From assembly GCF_028693135.1 (NCBI RefSeq), contig NZ_JAQUVZ010000008.1:1-64000 (forward strand): a stretch of DNA of 64,000 bases, in the 5' to 3' direction. Positions 44,700-55,036 of this stretch are shown here, piece after piece (within the stretch, counting starts at the first letter, position 1; every line of letters starts with the position of its first letter). Under the pieces are notes generated by a model. It was not told where the DNA came from and ran no database searches. It saw nothing but the letters and a program-made list of their open reading frames with translations. This DNA comes from Methanosarcina sp. (GTDB taxonomy: Archaea > Halobacteriota > Methanosarcinia > Methanosarcinales > Methanosarcinaceae). The position numbers and the translations under genes are program-made.

Positions 44700-45083
44700 G
44701 AACTAATAATAATCTTTAACCGATAACCATTCCATATAATATGATCACTCTACAAGTATATTTTTAAAATGTTATCTTTTTTTATGATGTGTTTCTTTTG
44801 AATAAGTTTTATAATTGTTCCTATTTTTATTTAATTAGTAGGTGGGGACTTACTGGACAGTAATAATACTGGCTAACCTGCTCATTAGTCTATTGATGCT
44901 TTCTAGTTAACATGGTCGATATATACCGATTCCCCTCGTAGTAGATTGGAAAAATTACCCCATAATCTGCAACTATTATTTTAACTGAATCATTTTAACT
45001 GAATCTTCGAAAAATAAGAATTAGAATCTTTGAATGAAAGTACAAGGTCGAAAAGTGTGGGAAATATTAAAACTAGGTTATCA

Positions 45084-45148
45084 AACCAGCTTTCTAACCA
45101 GCTTTCTAACCAGCTTTCAAACCAGCTTTCAAACCAGCTTTCAAACCA
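45084..45148. repeat. 12-bp tandem repeat downstream of the DUF429 gene
   Basis: Five and a half copies of aaccagctttct or aaccagctttca, 28 bp past the stop codon of the minus-strand gene. Confidence 0.9.
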
Positions 45149-45175
45149 AATTTTTTACTCTGACCCTCTCAAAGT

Positions 45176-45955: not shown

Positions 45956-46106
45956 ACCTGTACCTGGGGGGCAAACTTAAAAGAGTTTTTCTTGCGGAGA
46001 CCCGGGATTGCGGGAAACAGTTAATTAACAAAAAAGATGTACGGATCTGTAGAAGCTCAAAGGTCGGAACAGGTTATCAGGATTAGCTTAAAAGTAAATA
46101 AAATAA

Positions 46107-46257
46107 CTTTAAAGGTTGCCTTGATAGATTTAAAGGTTGCCTTGATAAATTTAAAGGTTAATCAAATAGATTTAAAGGTTAATCAAATAGATTTAAAGGT
46201 TAATCAAATAGATTTAAAGGTTAATCAAATAGATCTAAAAGTTAATCAAATAGATTT
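46107..46257. repeat. 21-bp tandem repeat array 1
   Basis: About seven copies of a 21-bp unit (gatttaaaggttaatcaaata); the first two copies read ttgccttgat in place of ttaatcaaat. The unit length keeps a frame open (IDLKVNQ repeated), but no start context supports translation. Confidence 0.9.
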
Positions 46258-46268
46258 TTCTGGCTGGA

Positions 46269-46378
46269 AAAAATGTTCATACAATAAGTAAAAATGTTCA
46301 TGCAATAAGTAAAAATGTTCATGAAATAAGTAAAAATGTTCATGCAATAAGTAAAAATATTCATGCAATAAGTAAAAA
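46269..46378. repeat. 21-bp tandem repeat array 2
   Basis: Five copies of aaaaatgttcatgcaataagt, a different sequence from array 1 but the same 21-bp period, 12 bp apart from it and about 33 bp before the next gene start. Confidence 0.9.
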
Positions 46379-46411
46379 TTATCAGATTAACAATGAAATT
46401 GGAGACAGGTC

Positions 46412-49100: not shown

Positions 49101-49823
49101 ATGAGCACCAATCCCATTTCAACTAAGAACGATAAAAGCAAAAACGACAAAGGCAAGAGTGATAAAGGCAGAGTGGTTGTTTCCTGGACCGGAGGAAAGG
49201 ACGGTTGCCTTGCATGTTACGGGGCAATCTCGGAAGGTTTTGAGGTCTCCCACCTCCTGAACTTCAGAGAAATCCAGAGGCGCGGTTCCCATGACATCAA
49301 TCCTGACCTGCTTTATGCACAGGCTGAAGCTCTTGGAATTCCCCTTCTCCATAAGGACTATATTTCATATGAACAGGAATTCAAAAAAGTGGTCCGTGAT
49401 TTAAGGGATAGCGGGGATAAAATAGACGGGGCGGTTTTCGGGCATATCGAGACGCACAAGAACCTTGTAGACAGGATATGTGGGGAACTGGGCCTCGAGT
49501 TAATAATGCCGCTCTGGCAGAGGAATTCCGAGCAGATCATAAATAGTCTCATAGATTCGGAGTTTGGGGTGATCCTGCTCAGCGTCAAAGCCGATTTGTT
49601 AGGAAAAGAGTGGCTGGGCCGAAAGATCGATGAAAATTTCATATGCGACCTGAAAAAGCACAATCCTTCAATCGACCCCTGCGGTGAAAACGGGGAGTTC
49701 CATACCTTTGTTATCGACTGCCCGCTGTTCAAAAACAGAATAAAGGTCATGGAGAGTGAAATGGTCTTGCGGGGAGACTACTGGTTCCTGGAGGTATCAA
49801 AGTTCGAGGCCGAGAAAAAATAA
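49101..49823 (+). CDS. Dph6-like N-type ATP pyrophosphatase (diphthine-ammonia ligase family)
   Basis: 240 residues. After a charged Lys/Asp/Ser-rich N-terminus comes the PP-loop SWTGGKDGCLACY; later VFGHIETHKN and GENGEFHTFVIDCPLF fit the Dph6 (DUF71) hallmark. The family adenylates diphthine for the last step of diphthamide on aEF2; a nucleotide-dependent amidation of another target is possible. The ATG at 49101 overlaps the end of an upstream open frame as ATGA, though that frame is doubtful. No strong ribosome binding site is visible. Confidence 0.87.
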   Translation: MSTNPISTKNDKSKNDKGKSDKGRVVVSWTGGKDGCLACYGAISEGFEVSHLLNFREIQRRGSHDINPDLLYAQAEALGIPLLHKDYISYEQEFKKVVRDLRDSGDKIDGAVFGHIETHKNLVDRICGELGLELIMPLWQRNSEQIINSLIDSEFGVILLSVKADLLGKEWLGRKIDENFICDLKKHNPSIDPCGENGEFHTFVIDCPLFKNRIKVMESEMVLRGDYWFLEVSKFEAEKK

Positions 49824-49947
49824 GCCTGCATTTTCGGCTTTCCTCTTTTATCATACCTATTTTACTCCGGACCCTACCTTTTTTGCTCGTGTTATGTTGC
49901 CCTCAAACCGCAAATTTCCAGCGGTTTTAGACGGTTGTAGATCATTT

Positions 49948-49979
49948 ATTTCAATCCACACACCCGAGTGGGGTGCGAC
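49948..49979 (-). CRISPR. Solitary type I-C-like CRISPR repeat
   Basis: On the minus strand a 32-nt unit begins GTCGCACCCCACTCGGGTGT and ends GTGGATTGAAAT. The GTCGCnCCCC start, GC-rich inner palindrome and GTGGATTGAAA(T/C) end are the type I-C repeat pattern. Only one copy is present, with no spacer array, leader or cas genes nearby. Five bases further the truncated rnhB begins. Confidence 0.65.
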
Positions 49980-49984
49980 AATCG

Positions 49985-50443
49985 CAGATCGACGAACTCC
50001 GGAAGATCGTGACAATGAACGAGATCATGGTGGTCTGTTTTGCAAAAGTGGTTGAACAGCTGAAGCCGGATATCGTGTATGTCGATGCTGCTGACGTAAA
50101 AGCCGAGCATTTTGGCGAAAATCTCCGCAGGCAGTATGCAAAAACCAGTCCTGCCCACGCAAAGAAAATAGAGATAATTTCCATGCACCAGGCAGATTCC
50201 ATCTATCCTGTAGTCTCGGCAGCTTCTATCATTGCAAAAGTGCGCAGGGACGAGCTTATAGAGGAGCTCAAGAAAGAATGGAACGCGGATTTCGGAAGCG
50301 GCTATCCCGCGGACCCGAAGACAAAAGAGTTCCTGTTTAAATGGGGAAAAGAACACGGCGGGAAGTTCCCGGAAATCGTCAGGCAGTCCTGGCAAACCGT
50401 AGAAAACATAAGAGAAAAACTGGAAAAAGCCGGAAAAAAGTGA
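49985..50443 (+). pseudogene. rnhB: 5'-truncated duplicate of rnhB
   Basis: Matches the intact RNase HII gene at 54371 from codon 72 (QIDELRKI) to the stop; the first 71 codons with the catalytic DEAGKG motif are missing, so it cannot be active alone. The two copies differ at about 15 residues of about 150, mostly conservative. The match starts 5 bp after the CRISPR repeat. The frame is open and ends in TGA at 50441-50443. It is probably the remnant of the original rnhB after insertion, or an imported copy. Confidence 0.9.
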
Positions 50444-50545: not shown

Positions 50546-53500
50546 ATGAGTGAAACGATTACATGGTTACATATTTCAGACACTCATTTTTGCAATAAGA
50601 AAAATGGGTGGGATTCTGAAGAAATTATTGACAGTTTTTTTGACGACTTAAAAAGAATGAAGAGTGAGTACAATTTATATCCTGATTTAATATTTTTCAC
50701 CGGTGACGTAGCCTTAGGTCATTTTAATGATTCGTGTGGTCTGTCGCTAAGAGATCAGTATGAAGAAGCTAATGAATTTCTGGAAAGAATCCGAGAGATA
50801 TTTCCAAAAATACCCATCTCAAACATTTTTATTGTACCTGGCAACCATGATGTGAACCGCACTCTAGTAGGAGAAGGTCAAACTAAATGGCTCAAAAGCC
50901 TCCTAATAAATAGTCCGGAAATTGGAAGAAGACGCATCAATGAATTAATAACGGAAAATAATGTGGACTGGAAAAGGTGCATGGAACGTCTAAATGACTA
51001 TAGAGACTTTTTGAAAAATAGTGGTTATCAGCACCTTCTTCAAGATCCTGATCGTTTGACATATTCAATAATATGTGATATCAATGGTTTTAATGTGGGA
51101 ATTGCTGGGTTGAATTCTGCTTGGTCTTCATATGGTGGCGATGAAGATAAAGCAAACTTATTGCTCGGAACTTATCAAATATCGGAAGCTCGCAATAAGC
51201 TAAAAGAAACTATGCTTTCAATAGCTATTGTTCATCACCCTCCCAACTGGTTTACAAATTTTGAAGACCCAAAAATAAATCGAGAAATTGAAAGAAACTT
51301 TAATTTCCATCTTCATGGGCATGAACACCAAGACTGGGTAATGCCTATCGAAAAACATATCCGCATAGCAGCTGGAGCTCTTTACAATAGCTCCGAACAA
51401 AAAAACGGATATAATTTTATAAGGTTATATCCTTCAGAAAACAGAGGAGAAGTATTCCTACGAACATATAATAACGGCGTATGGGTACCAAATATTATTG
51501 GGAATAAGACAAACAATGACGGCATATGGAATCTAGAGAGTCTCAACATAAATATTAAGAAAAAAGAAAATATAATCAATAGTAAATCGGATGTTGGAGT
51601 GCATGAACCTGCTGAGAAGTCCACTCCTGAAATAACTGCTATTTTGGATGAAAATATACAGAAAAATGACTCTTCTTCGAAAACTCTCGCTATTACTAAA
51701 GATTTTGATTCCACGCCTGTACAAATTTTGCCTCCTCAGCCTGCTCCGGAATCAAAAGCCACAATATCAAACGTTCCTTACTCAAGGAACACTCGTTTCA
51801 CAGGGCGTGAAGATAAGTTAAAACAAATTCATGAAGCTCTTCTTTCAGATAATACAGTTGCTGTATCTCAACCCATTGCAGTGTGCGGACTCGGAGGTAT
51901 TGGGAAAACACAAACTGCGGTTGAATATACCTATCGTTATTGTGCTGAATATGAATTTATATTCTGGGTCAAAGCCGATTCTGAAGATTCGATAATTTCC
52001 GGTTATGTCGATATTGCAAAATTATTGAATTTACCGGTTAAAAACGACTCAGACCAGAACAATATTGTTTCAGCTGTATTAAACTGGTTTAGAACTCATG
52101 AGAAATGGTTACTTGTTCTCGACAATGCGGATGACACTTCTTTTGTAAAGAATTATCTTCCTCCAGAACCCAAAGGGCATATCCTCCTGACTTCAAGAGC
52201 ACAAGTTTTTGATGCACTTGAGATTACAGGGTTGGTTGAAATGGAGGAGATGTCTCCTGACGAAGCTAAGAGTTTCCTTCTGAAGCGTACAGTGCGTTCT
52301 GATCTACATCAATCTGAATTTGAAGCTCTTGAAAAGCTTGTACATGAACTTGGTTATCTTCCATTGGCTTTAGAACAAGCAGGAGCCTATATTTACGCAA
52401 ACAACTCCAGCTTTAAAGATTATCTGGTTAGCTATAATAAACGCGGCCTGAAGTTATTAGAAAAATCTCCGATTGATAAGAGCAAGTATCCAGAATCGAT
52501 ATCTACCACCTGGTTAATGAACTTCGAGGAGGTAAATAAAAAATCGGAAGTTTCAGCAGATGTTTTATTTGCAAGTGCTTATCTCAATCCCCACGAGATC
52601 CCTGCCGAAATTTTTTATAAAGGCGCGGACGAGTTAGGACCATCAATTTCTGCCGAATTTGATGAGATTGATACAGATCCCCTCGTTTTTGATGAAGTTC
52701 TCAACCCACTCTGGCAGTACTCTTTGATCAATCGTGAAACTGGTTGCCGTAATTACGATATTCACCGCCTTGTACAGGCTGTTCTTAGAGACGGAATGGA
52801 AAAAAGTGAACAGAAACTCTGGGCTGAACGTGTTGTTAAAGCTGTCAACCGTGCATTTCCTGAAGTTGAGTATAAAAATTGGGAGCTTTGTGACAAGCTT
52901 CTTCCACATGCGCAGACCTGTGCAGAATATATTGGATTGTGGGACATCGAGAATGAAGAGTCTGCAAAATTGCTAAACTCAACTGGCAGTTATCTGCATA
53001 AACGTGCACGTTTCAAGGAAAGCGAGTCGCTCTTGAAAAGTTCGTTGGAAATTCGAGAGAAAGTTCTGGAACCCGAACATTTTGATATCTCTGAGAGCCT
53101 CAACAATTTAGGTGAGCTTTGTAAAGATTTAGGCAGGTACTCGGAAGCAGAACCATTATACTTGCGTTCATTAGAGATTCGAGAAAATACTTTTAATTCA
53201 GATGATCCAGCTATAGCAGAGAGTCTTAACAATTTAGCGGAATTTTATAGAATTTTAGGCAGGTATTCTGAAGCTGAACCTTTACAAGTACGTGCATTAG
53301 AAATCCGAGAAACTGTCTTAAAGTCAGACCATCCGGCTATAGCAGAGAGTCTAAACAACCTAGGCGGAGTTTATAGCGATTTGGGCAGATATTCTGAAGC
53401 CGAACCTCTTTATACTCGTGCCCTGAAAATTACAGAAAGAGCACTTAGCCCTGAACATCCAGATGTAGCGGTCTACCTTAATAATCTAGCCTTAATTTAT

Positions 53501-54094
53501 AGAGATTTAGGCAGATATTCTGAATCCGAACCTCTTTGTATTCGTGCCTTAAAAATTACAGAAAAAGCACTGGGCCCTGAACATCCAGATGTAGGTCGTC
53601 GCCTTAACAGTCTAGCGACAGTTTATAGAGATTTGGGGAGGTATTCTGAAGCCGAACTTCTGTATACTCGTGCTTTGGAAATTACAGAAAGAGCACTGGG
53701 CCCTGAACACCCAGATGTAGGTAATCGCCTTAATAATCTAGCGACAGTTTATAGTGATTTGGGGAGGTATTCTGAAGCTGAACCTCTGTATACCCATGCC
53801 CTGGAAATTACAGAAAGAGCACTGGGCCCTGAGCATCCAGATGTAACCGCCTGTCTTAATAACTTAGCAGTGTTTTTTTATAATCAGGGGAAATATCTCA
53901 AAGCCAAGTCCCATTTTGAGCGAGCAACTGATGTTGTGGAAAAAACCAAAGGAGAAAATAGTCTTAAGCTTGCTAGCCTCTTAGAAGAGTATGCTTCTTT
54001 GTTAGAAAAGATGGGAAGGAATAGAGAAGCTACAACAAAACGTAATCGAGCTAAAAGGATACGTTCAAAAATTGAAAAAGGAAACAAAAAGTGA
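50546..54094 (+). CDS. Calcineurin-like phosphoesterase/NB-ARC/TPR protein (NLR-like STAND)
   Basis: 1182 residues in three parts. (1) Residues 1-270, metallophosphoesterase: SDTHF (D12, H14), FTGDVA (D54), PGNHD (N100, H101), VHHPP (H230) and LHGHEH (258-261), a complete two-metal site. (2) About 410-800, NB-ARC: ITGRED-like FTGREDKL, P-loop GLGGIGKTQ (448-456), Walker B LLVLDNADD (about 523-530), LTSR and a GxPLA-like GYLPLALEQ, then a winged-helix-like region. (3) About 818-1157, eight 42-residue TPRs (RYSEAEPLYTRALEITERALGPEHPDV type). Known STAND proteins sense a ligand with the C-terminus, bind ATP and oligomerise to activate the effector. Effector here would be a phosphodiesterase or nuclease. 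It is AT-rich compared with neighbours and sits alone between two rnhB copies, signs of transfer. An antiviral role is inferred. Confidence 0.88.
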   Translation: MSETITWLHISDTHFCNKKNGWDSEEIIDSFFDDLKRMKSEYNLYPDLIFFTGDVALGHFNDSCGLSLRDQYEEANEFLERIREIFPKIPISNIFIVPGNHDVNRTLVGEGQTKWLKSLLINSPEIGRRRINELITENNVDWKRCMERLNDYRDFLKNSGYQHLLQDPDRLTYSIICDINGFNVGIAGLNSAWSSYGGDEDKANLLLGTYQISEARNKLKETMLSIAIVHHPPNWFTNFEDPKINREIERNFNFHLHGHEHQDWVMPIEKHIRIAAGALYNSSEQKNGYNFIRLYPSENRGEVFLRTYNNGVWVPNIIGNKTNNDGIWNLESLNINIKKKENIINSKSDVGVHEPAEKSTPEITAILDENIQKNDSSSKTLAITKDFDSTPVQILPPQPAPESKATISNVPYSRNTRFTGREDKLKQIHEALLSDNTVAVSQPIAVCGLGGIGKTQTAVEYTYRYCAEYEFIFWVKADSEDSIISGYVDIAKLLNLPVKNDSDQNNIVSAVLNWFRTHEKWLLVLDNADDTSFVKNYLPPEPKGHILLTSRAQVFDALEITGLVEMEEMSPDEAKSFLLKRTVRSDLHQSEFEALEKLVHELGYLPLALEQAGAYIYANNSSFKDYLVSYNKRGLKLLEKSPIDKSKYPESISTTWLMNFEEVNKKSEVSADVLFASAYLNPHEIPAEIFYKGADELGPSISAEFDEIDTDPLVFDEVLNPLWQYSLINRETGCRNYDIHRLVQAVLRDGMEKSEQKLWAERVVKAVNRAFPEVEYKNWELCDKLLPHAQTCAEYIGLWDIENEESAKLLNSTGSYLHKRARFKESESLLKSSLEIREKVLEPEHFDISESLNNLGELCKDLGRYSEAEPLYLRSLEIRENTFNSDDPAIAESLNNLAEFYRILGRYSEAEPLQVRALEIRETVLKSDHPAIAESLNNLGGVYSDLGRYSEAEPLYTRALKITERALSPEHPDVAVYLNNLALIYRDLGRYSESEPLCIRALKITEKALGPEHPDVGRRLNSLATVYRDLGRYSEAELLYTRALEITERALGPEHPDVGNRLNNLATVYSDLGRYSEAEPLYTHALEITERALGPEHPDVTACLNNLAVFFYNQGKYLKAKSHFERATDVVEKTKGENSLKLASLLEEYASLLEKMGRNREATTKRNRAKRIRSKIEKGNKK

Positions 54095-54370
54095 GCTCTA
54101 TTTATCATAGTCTCTGTGTGCGGCTTGCCTGACTGGAAATGGCTTCAAAGATTATTTTATCTCAATAAACTTGCTAACTGAAGCTTAAATATAAATATGT
54201 ATATCAAAATAGAGCCTCGTTTAATACTTTGCCAATAGAGTTAAACAAAGATGTTAAAAGTAGGTATTGTTTAGAATCATTACGAATTTTTTAGTGAGAA
54301 TAAAATATACCTTTACCTATTTTTATAAAGTAAAAAGCTCTCTTATCTCAAATCAGGAGGCAACCACAAA

Positions 54371-55036
54371 ATGATGATCGCAGGAATTGATGAAGCCGGA
54401 AAAGGCCCTGTAATCGGGCCCATGTGCATAGGGGGCGTAAAGATAGATGAGTCTAAAGCCCATATCCTCAAGGTGCTGGGGGTTGCGGATTCCAAGAAGC
54501 TGACTCCAAAAAAAAGGGAGCAGCTTGCAGCCCAGATCAAAAAACACGCAGACGGTTTTTTCGTCCTTGAGATCAGCCCCTCTCAGATCGACGAACTCCG
54601 TAAGATCATGACTATGAATGAGATCATGGTGGTCTGTTTTGCAAAAGTGGTTGAACAGCTAAAGCCTGATCTGGTATATGTTGATGCTGCGGACGTGAAA
54701 GCCGAGCGTTTTGGCGAAAATATCCGCAGGCAGTATGCAAAAACCAGTCCTGATCATGCAAAGAAAATAGAGATAATTTCCATGCACCAGGCAGATGCCA
54801 CCTATCCTGTAGTCTCGGCAGCCTCGATCATTGCAAAAGTACGCAGGGACGAGCTTATAGAAGAGCTCAAGAAAGAATGGAACGCGGATTTTGGAAGCGG
54901 CTATCCTTCGGACCCGAAGACAAAAGAGTTCCTGTTGAAATGGGGAAAAGAACACCACGGAGAATTTCCCGCTATCGTCAGGCAGTCCTGGAAGACTGTG
55001 GAAAACATAAGGGAAGAACTGAAAAAAGCTGAATGA
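54371..55036 (+). CDS. rnhB: Ribonuclease HII
   Basis: 221 residues, archaeal size. Catalytic IAGIDEAGKGPVIGP (Asp, Glu), VYVDAADVK (Asp) and ISMHQADATYPVVSAASIIAKVRRDE (Asp). It cleaves RNA in RNA:DNA hybrids and removes single ribonucleotides from DNA. ATG at 54371 with CAGGAGG ten bases ahead; a second ATG follows directly. The truncated copy upstream indicates that the neighbouring segment was inserted next to this gene. A 12-bp repeat (aaaaagatttcc, twice) follows the stop. Confidence 0.96.
   Translation: MMIAGIDEAGKGPVIGPMCIGGVKIDESKAHILKVLGVADSKKLTPKKREQLAAQIKKHADGFFVLEISPSQIDELRKIMTMNEIMVVCFAKVVEQLKPDLVYVDAADVKAERFGENIRRQYAKTSPDHAKKIEIISMHQADATYPVVSAASIIAKVRRDELIEELKKEWNADFGSGYPSDPKTKEFLLKWGKEHHGEFPAIVRQSWKTVENIREELKKAE

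Follow-up and report, generated by a model that had tools for sequence, protein, structure and literature searches.

The window analysed here, a stretch of 64,000 nucleotides from a Methanosarcina species, contains one complete CRISPR repeat of the type I-C kind directly in front of a truncated copy of rnhB, and this raises the question of how a repeat comes to stand there by itself. It could be what is left of a CRISPR locus, it could have arrived with the DNA next to it, or it could be a unit with a role of its own. The features of the region are given in Table 1.

Table 1. Features around the lone repeat (positions in the window)
Feature	Position	Strand	Basis
dph6-like gene (Diphthami_syn_2), trailer-side flank of the presumed lost array	49101..49823	+	Pfam PF01902, E=1.4e-52
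3' flank of dph6, common to G011	49825..49947	+	86% identity to G011 over 117 nt
Lone type I-C repeat, probable array relic	49948..49979	- (crRNA sense GTCGCACCCCACTCGGGTGTGTGGATTGAAAT)	Comparison of the genome and its relatives
Junction, AA + 18 nt of rnhB	49980..49999	+	Same 20 nt behind the second repeat in G011
3' part of rnhB	49982..50443	+	Pfam RNase_HII match from profile position 73 only
Calcineurin-like phosphoesterase / NB-ARC / TPR gene	50546..54094	+	Pfam Metallophos, NB-ARC, TPR
Intact rnhB with its native upstream region (from about -73), leader/cas-side flank	54298..55036	+	

The sequence-only reading had recognized a full 32-nt repeat of type I-C (ATTTCAATCCACACACCCGAGTGGGGTGCGAC in plus-strand letters), and this identification holds. 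The repeat has its full length, and in the crRNA sense, i.e., as the reverse complement on the minus strand, it forms an intact hairpin with the same stem region as related repeats. A search of the whole 4.22-Mb genome with up to three mismatches returned this copy only, and it remained single when the loop was made degenerate; for the window, 100 shuffles at the same tolerance gave an expectation of 0 chance matches. No second repeat was found near it, such that the genome has one repeat where an array takes at least two. The genome's own CRISPR arrays are built on a different 37-nt repeat, GTTTCAATCCTTGTTTTAGTGGATCTTGCTCGCGAAT.

The comparison set consisted of 31 Methanosarcina genomes, one per species, in which the present genome is G000. 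Six of them (G002, G023, G025, G026, G027 and G030) have arrays whose repeats, numbering 7 to 25 or more, follow the pattern ATTTCAATCCACACACCCG[CT]GAAGGGTGCGAC. These share with the lone repeat the length of 32 nt and the stem, and the 29/32 identity to the arrays adjoining Cas8c leaves differences solely in the 5-nt hairpin loop, which reads TTCGC or TTCAC in the relatives and CACTC here. The CACTC variant is limited to this genome and G011, and in the 31 genomes it was never seen together with a leader and cas genes, that is, at the step before the loss. A search for type I-C proteins, which covered Cas8c and Cas1, found the effector Cas8c/Csd1 (PF09709) in exactly the six genomes with arrays. 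Those encoded at the loci of G030 and G002 were scored as Cas3c, Cas5c, Cas8c, Cas7c, Cas4c and Cas1c. Cas8c was found neither in the genome studied here nor in G011, G007, G008 or G028, though all of these carry repeats. The concern raised with the first reading, that no Methanosarcina might possess an I-C array or cas set with such a repeat, is thus removed by six genomes that carry both. A decayed cas1 piece with in-frame stops elsewhere in this genome (L119 308-573, G000:C19) was also considered, and it has no match to I-C cas1.

In G030, the order is pheT, array, cas7, 8c, 5, 3 and rnhB, all adjacent; in G025, 16-20 nt separate dph6 from the start of the array; and in G002, array and leader are followed by cas1, 4, 7, 8c, 5 and 3, and then by rnhB. 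Across the three loci, the array is bordered by pheT or dph6 and the cas genes by rnhB, and G009, in which dph6 adjoins rnhB, is CRISPR-free at this site. Since the repeats of the present genome and G011 also lie between dph6 and rnhB, the lone repeat sits where the array belongs, with its leader side facing rnhB. The canonical leader of the relatives ([CA]G[TC]AAATTAATTTAGAT...) is gone in both genomes, and rnhB sequence stands at the repeat edge here in its stead. Compared with the complete loci, the present one therefore lacks leader, cas genes and array. The system also moves, since the I-C locus of G023 is found at a different genomic site.

G011 (Methanosarcina sp. 2.H.T.1A.6) provides an intermediate. 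It carries two repeats identical to the one studied here around a 31-nt spacer, in the order pheT-dph6-[repeat-spacer-repeat]-rnhB, with the array beginning 140 nt after dph6, and it likewise has neither a leader nor I-C cas genes. Among the contigs of the GTDB collection, this genome was the sole one with an exact match to the repeat. Behind the last repeat, both genomes continue with the same 20 nt, AATCGCAGATCGACGAACTC. On the other side of the repeat, the 3' flank of dph6 is native to about position 49914, since some 90 nt of it match the dph6 flank of G003, which is CRISPR-free there; the remaining ~33 nt before the repeat are possibly an old spacer or trailer. Taken together, the repeat very probably represents what remains of a type I-C locus between dph6 and rnhB that had its array on the dph6 side and its leader and cas genes on the rnhB side. 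The proposal of the sequence-only reading that it is the scar of a lost array is borne out by the two-repeat version in G011 and the intact I-C loci beside the same genes. Relic and orphan CRISPR arrays are already a known phenomenon.

The junction itself shows what replaced the leader. Homology to rnhB begins at 49982, 2 nt past the repeat (TCGCAGATCGACGAACTC, as compared to TCTCAGATCGACGAACTC in the intact copy at 54581); the distance of about 5 bp given in the first reading applies to the unbroken run of identity, which starts at 49985. The truncated copy ends at a stop codon and lacks the first 210 nt of the gene (70 codons), including the start and the DEAG motif. The DEAG-containing N-terminal part is required for activity in the RNase HII family, and from its sequence, the truncated copy is thus predicted to be unable to act as an RNase HII. 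It is 90.2% identical to the intact copy in the same genome, a divergence (~10%) like that between different species. In a tree of rnhB, the two copies form one clade with that of G008, and the truncated one branches outside the pair of the full copy and G008. Relative to G008, the truncated copy has ~16 non-synonymous changes and the intact one ~6 in a dN/dS comparison, an excess that would be compatible with relaxed selection. A recent tandem duplication of rnhB was ruled out by the divergence and by this outside branching, and it is also contradicted by the 3' flank of the truncated copy, which resembles G001 (93% over 63 nt) and not the flank of the full copy. Downstream of its intact rnhB, G001 itself contains a further fragment of the gene that is strongly diverged (L075 11516-11689), with a cargo gene between the duplicates and a flanking arrangement as in the present genome.

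G011 retains just the 20 nt of the junction, which are followed by about 10-30 nt and then by its native rnhB upstream region. This stub differs at several positions from the rnhB of G011 itself and is identical to the truncated copy here, which argues that the break is common to both genomes and that the remnant was trimmed later in G011. We therefore envisage the following course of events. In the ancestor shared with G011, a DNA break close to the leader end of the array would have been joined to a point 210 nt inside a copy of rnhB, with microhomology of at most 1-2 nt and 'AA' at the join. Leader, cas genes and the first third of this rnhB copy would thereby have been lost. A direct deletion accounts for a single, truncated rnhB, so that a second event must be assumed, and the intact gene may have been a second copy or may have been regained via recombination with DNA from relatives. 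In G011, a new junction would have trimmed the rnhB remnant to 18 nt; in the present genome, the remaining spacer would have been lost, for which recombination of one repeat with its identical neighbour is a plausible route. The locus has seen other turnover, since the hydrolase gene next to rnhB is missing in G011.

The order of genes behind the repeat is truncated rnhB, the gene for a protein of 1182 amino acids with metallophosphoesterase, NB-ARC and TPR domains, and intact rnhB. The N-terminal domain of this protein matches the PADLOC candidate model PDC-S60 (E=4e-42), and the gene is a putative NLR-like defence gene, to which a further gene in this genome (contig C58, G000:C58:96644-98979) is related with 72% DNA identity. 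Since native rnhB upstream sequence resumes behind it, the NLR-like gene occupies the place of the leader and the cas operon. The tie between the accessory segment and CRISPR material that had been proposed is thus real, though of a different nature, in that the segment now stands where the leader and cas genes used to be. That the repeat was carried in with this insertion is not supported, because it lies on the native dph6 side and is present in G011, which does not have the NLR-like segment. The 56 nt at 54154-54209 have counterparts of 84-94% identity in G018, G007 and G017 and are possibly a small repeated element.

A different origin of the junction is conceivable if the rnhB stretch began as a self-targeting spacer, such that autoimmunity favoured the loss of the I-C system, with recombination between spacer and rnhB in this genome and a deletion through the spacer in G011. 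TTC is the usual PAM of type I-C systems, and a GAA, which reads TTC on the crRNA strand, is found 37 nt away from the repeat, although such a triplet is expected by chance in about 1 in 10 cases. Furthermore, the 20-nt remnant in G011 falls within the length of a spacer (30-38 nt), a coincidence if the breakpoint had been placed at random in the 460-nt fragment, and self-targeting with end-joining deletions has a precedent in Haloferax (PMC7521656). However, the match of a newly acquired spacer should extend to the very edge of the repeat, and the match here begins 2 nt off, as the two nucleotides next to the repeat do not fit any Methanosarcina rnhB. Also, when 93 spacers from related arrays were compared with 21 rnhB copies and with the whole segment, nothing beyond short chance matches came up, and none was an rnhB spacer. 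As rnhB is the adjacent gene, a rearrangement explains the junction without any spacer, and we consider this origin, which the first reading had suggested as a recombination with an rnhB spacer, to be improbable. The adaptation machinery could also have made the break. The leader-side edge of a repeat is the site of attack by Cas1-Cas2, and an aberrant half-site integration, by joining a chromosomal end to this edge of the first repeat, could have separated the array from its leader and cas genes. Both here and in G011, the junction is 2 nt away from the edge, and in G030, sequence from close to the cas7 end abuts the first repeat exactly at its leader-side edge. However, the leader-side junction of the G008 relic lies ~16 nt from the repeat, two out of three cases are too few, and ordinary end joining yields identical products. 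We thus regard half-site integration as an unlikely cause of the present junction, and there is just as little to be said for its extension to G030, according to which the machinery amputated its own leader and adaptation genes.

Could the repeat instead have a role of its own? Solitary repeats of viruses and prophages can act as RNA anti-CRISPRs (Racr), also against type I-C (PMC10651486), and the repeat studied here, being a single full-length unit with an intact hairpin and without cas genes, resembles them in form. It would then be the solitary unit of a mobile element. However, it lies between the chromosomal genes dph6 and rnhB, i.e., among housekeeping genes and not on a virus, prophage or plasmid; a search of 2.9 million viral contigs did not return the exact repeat; an I-C effector that an anti-CRISPR might inhibit is missing from the genome; and G011 has a repeat-spacer-repeat at the same site. 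It is hence most improbable that the repeat is a Racr. The relic might otherwise have been kept as a minimal regulatory array directed at cas genes, as orphan I-F arrays with spacers matching cas genes are known in E. coli (PMC8616872). As in these, cas genes are gone from a site where relatives keep a full system, and the repeats of G011 are undamaged. Unlike them, the present site consists of one repeat from which no spacer remains, and the spacer of G011 gave no evidence of being directed against cas: it matches the I-C cas loci at 20/31 positions, i.e., at chance level, since shuffled spacers reach up to 22, and that of G008 likewise does no better than shuffled ones. In the 31 genomes, the G011 spacer had no match elsewhere (up to three mismatches), and a viral origin of it was rejected, there being no match in phage records or viral contigs. 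A retained regulatory array is thus largely refuted and hardly to be expected. For the remnant of a lost I-C locus, which we favour, probably no function is to be expected today, since no I-C proteins remain to process the repeat or make use of it, and the other arrays of the genome have a different 37-nt repeat.

With the relatives included, several stages of CRISPR decay can be seen at one chromosomal site within one genus, from the intact locus of G002 via that of G030, which is without leader and adaptation genes, to the relics, namely the two repeats of G011 and finally the single repeat of the present genome with its putative NLR-like defence gene. Chromosomal solitary repeats can thus be plain fossils, and calling one an RNA anti-CRISPR requires that the locus be checked in relatives. 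I-C loci are repeatedly lost within Methanosarcina.

Other genomes of the genus show related situations. The G030 locus (L067 13777-15827) has cas3-5-8c-7 and 18 repeats, with no leader, cas4, cas1 or cas2 in place; as its first repeat directly adjoins sequence close to the cas7 end, this array should not gain spacers by itself. G008 carries an I-C repeat-spacer-repeat relic downstream of tuf/rps10 (L115 1485-1602; G008:C1:970882-970978), in place of a ~1.2-kb segment that other genomes carry downstream of rps10. G028 has one repeat and G007 has two scattered ones. One of the latter is a perfect consensus I-C repeat that stands alone in this genome without Cas8c (G007:C1:1773634-1773665; L064 9634-9665), within a run of small unknown genes that includes a RecA/UvsX-like gene, and the other is a slightly diverged inverted copy 3.2 kb away (G007:C1:1776826-1776857). 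This region resembles a mobile element, and its repeat could be a solitary repeat unit and a candidate RNA anti-CRISPR. Within the window, upstream of dph6, units of 21 nt and 12 nt are repeated in tandem and in phase at and between gene ends (46067-46400 and 45069-45164), and runs of this kind are also seen close to other genes of the genus.
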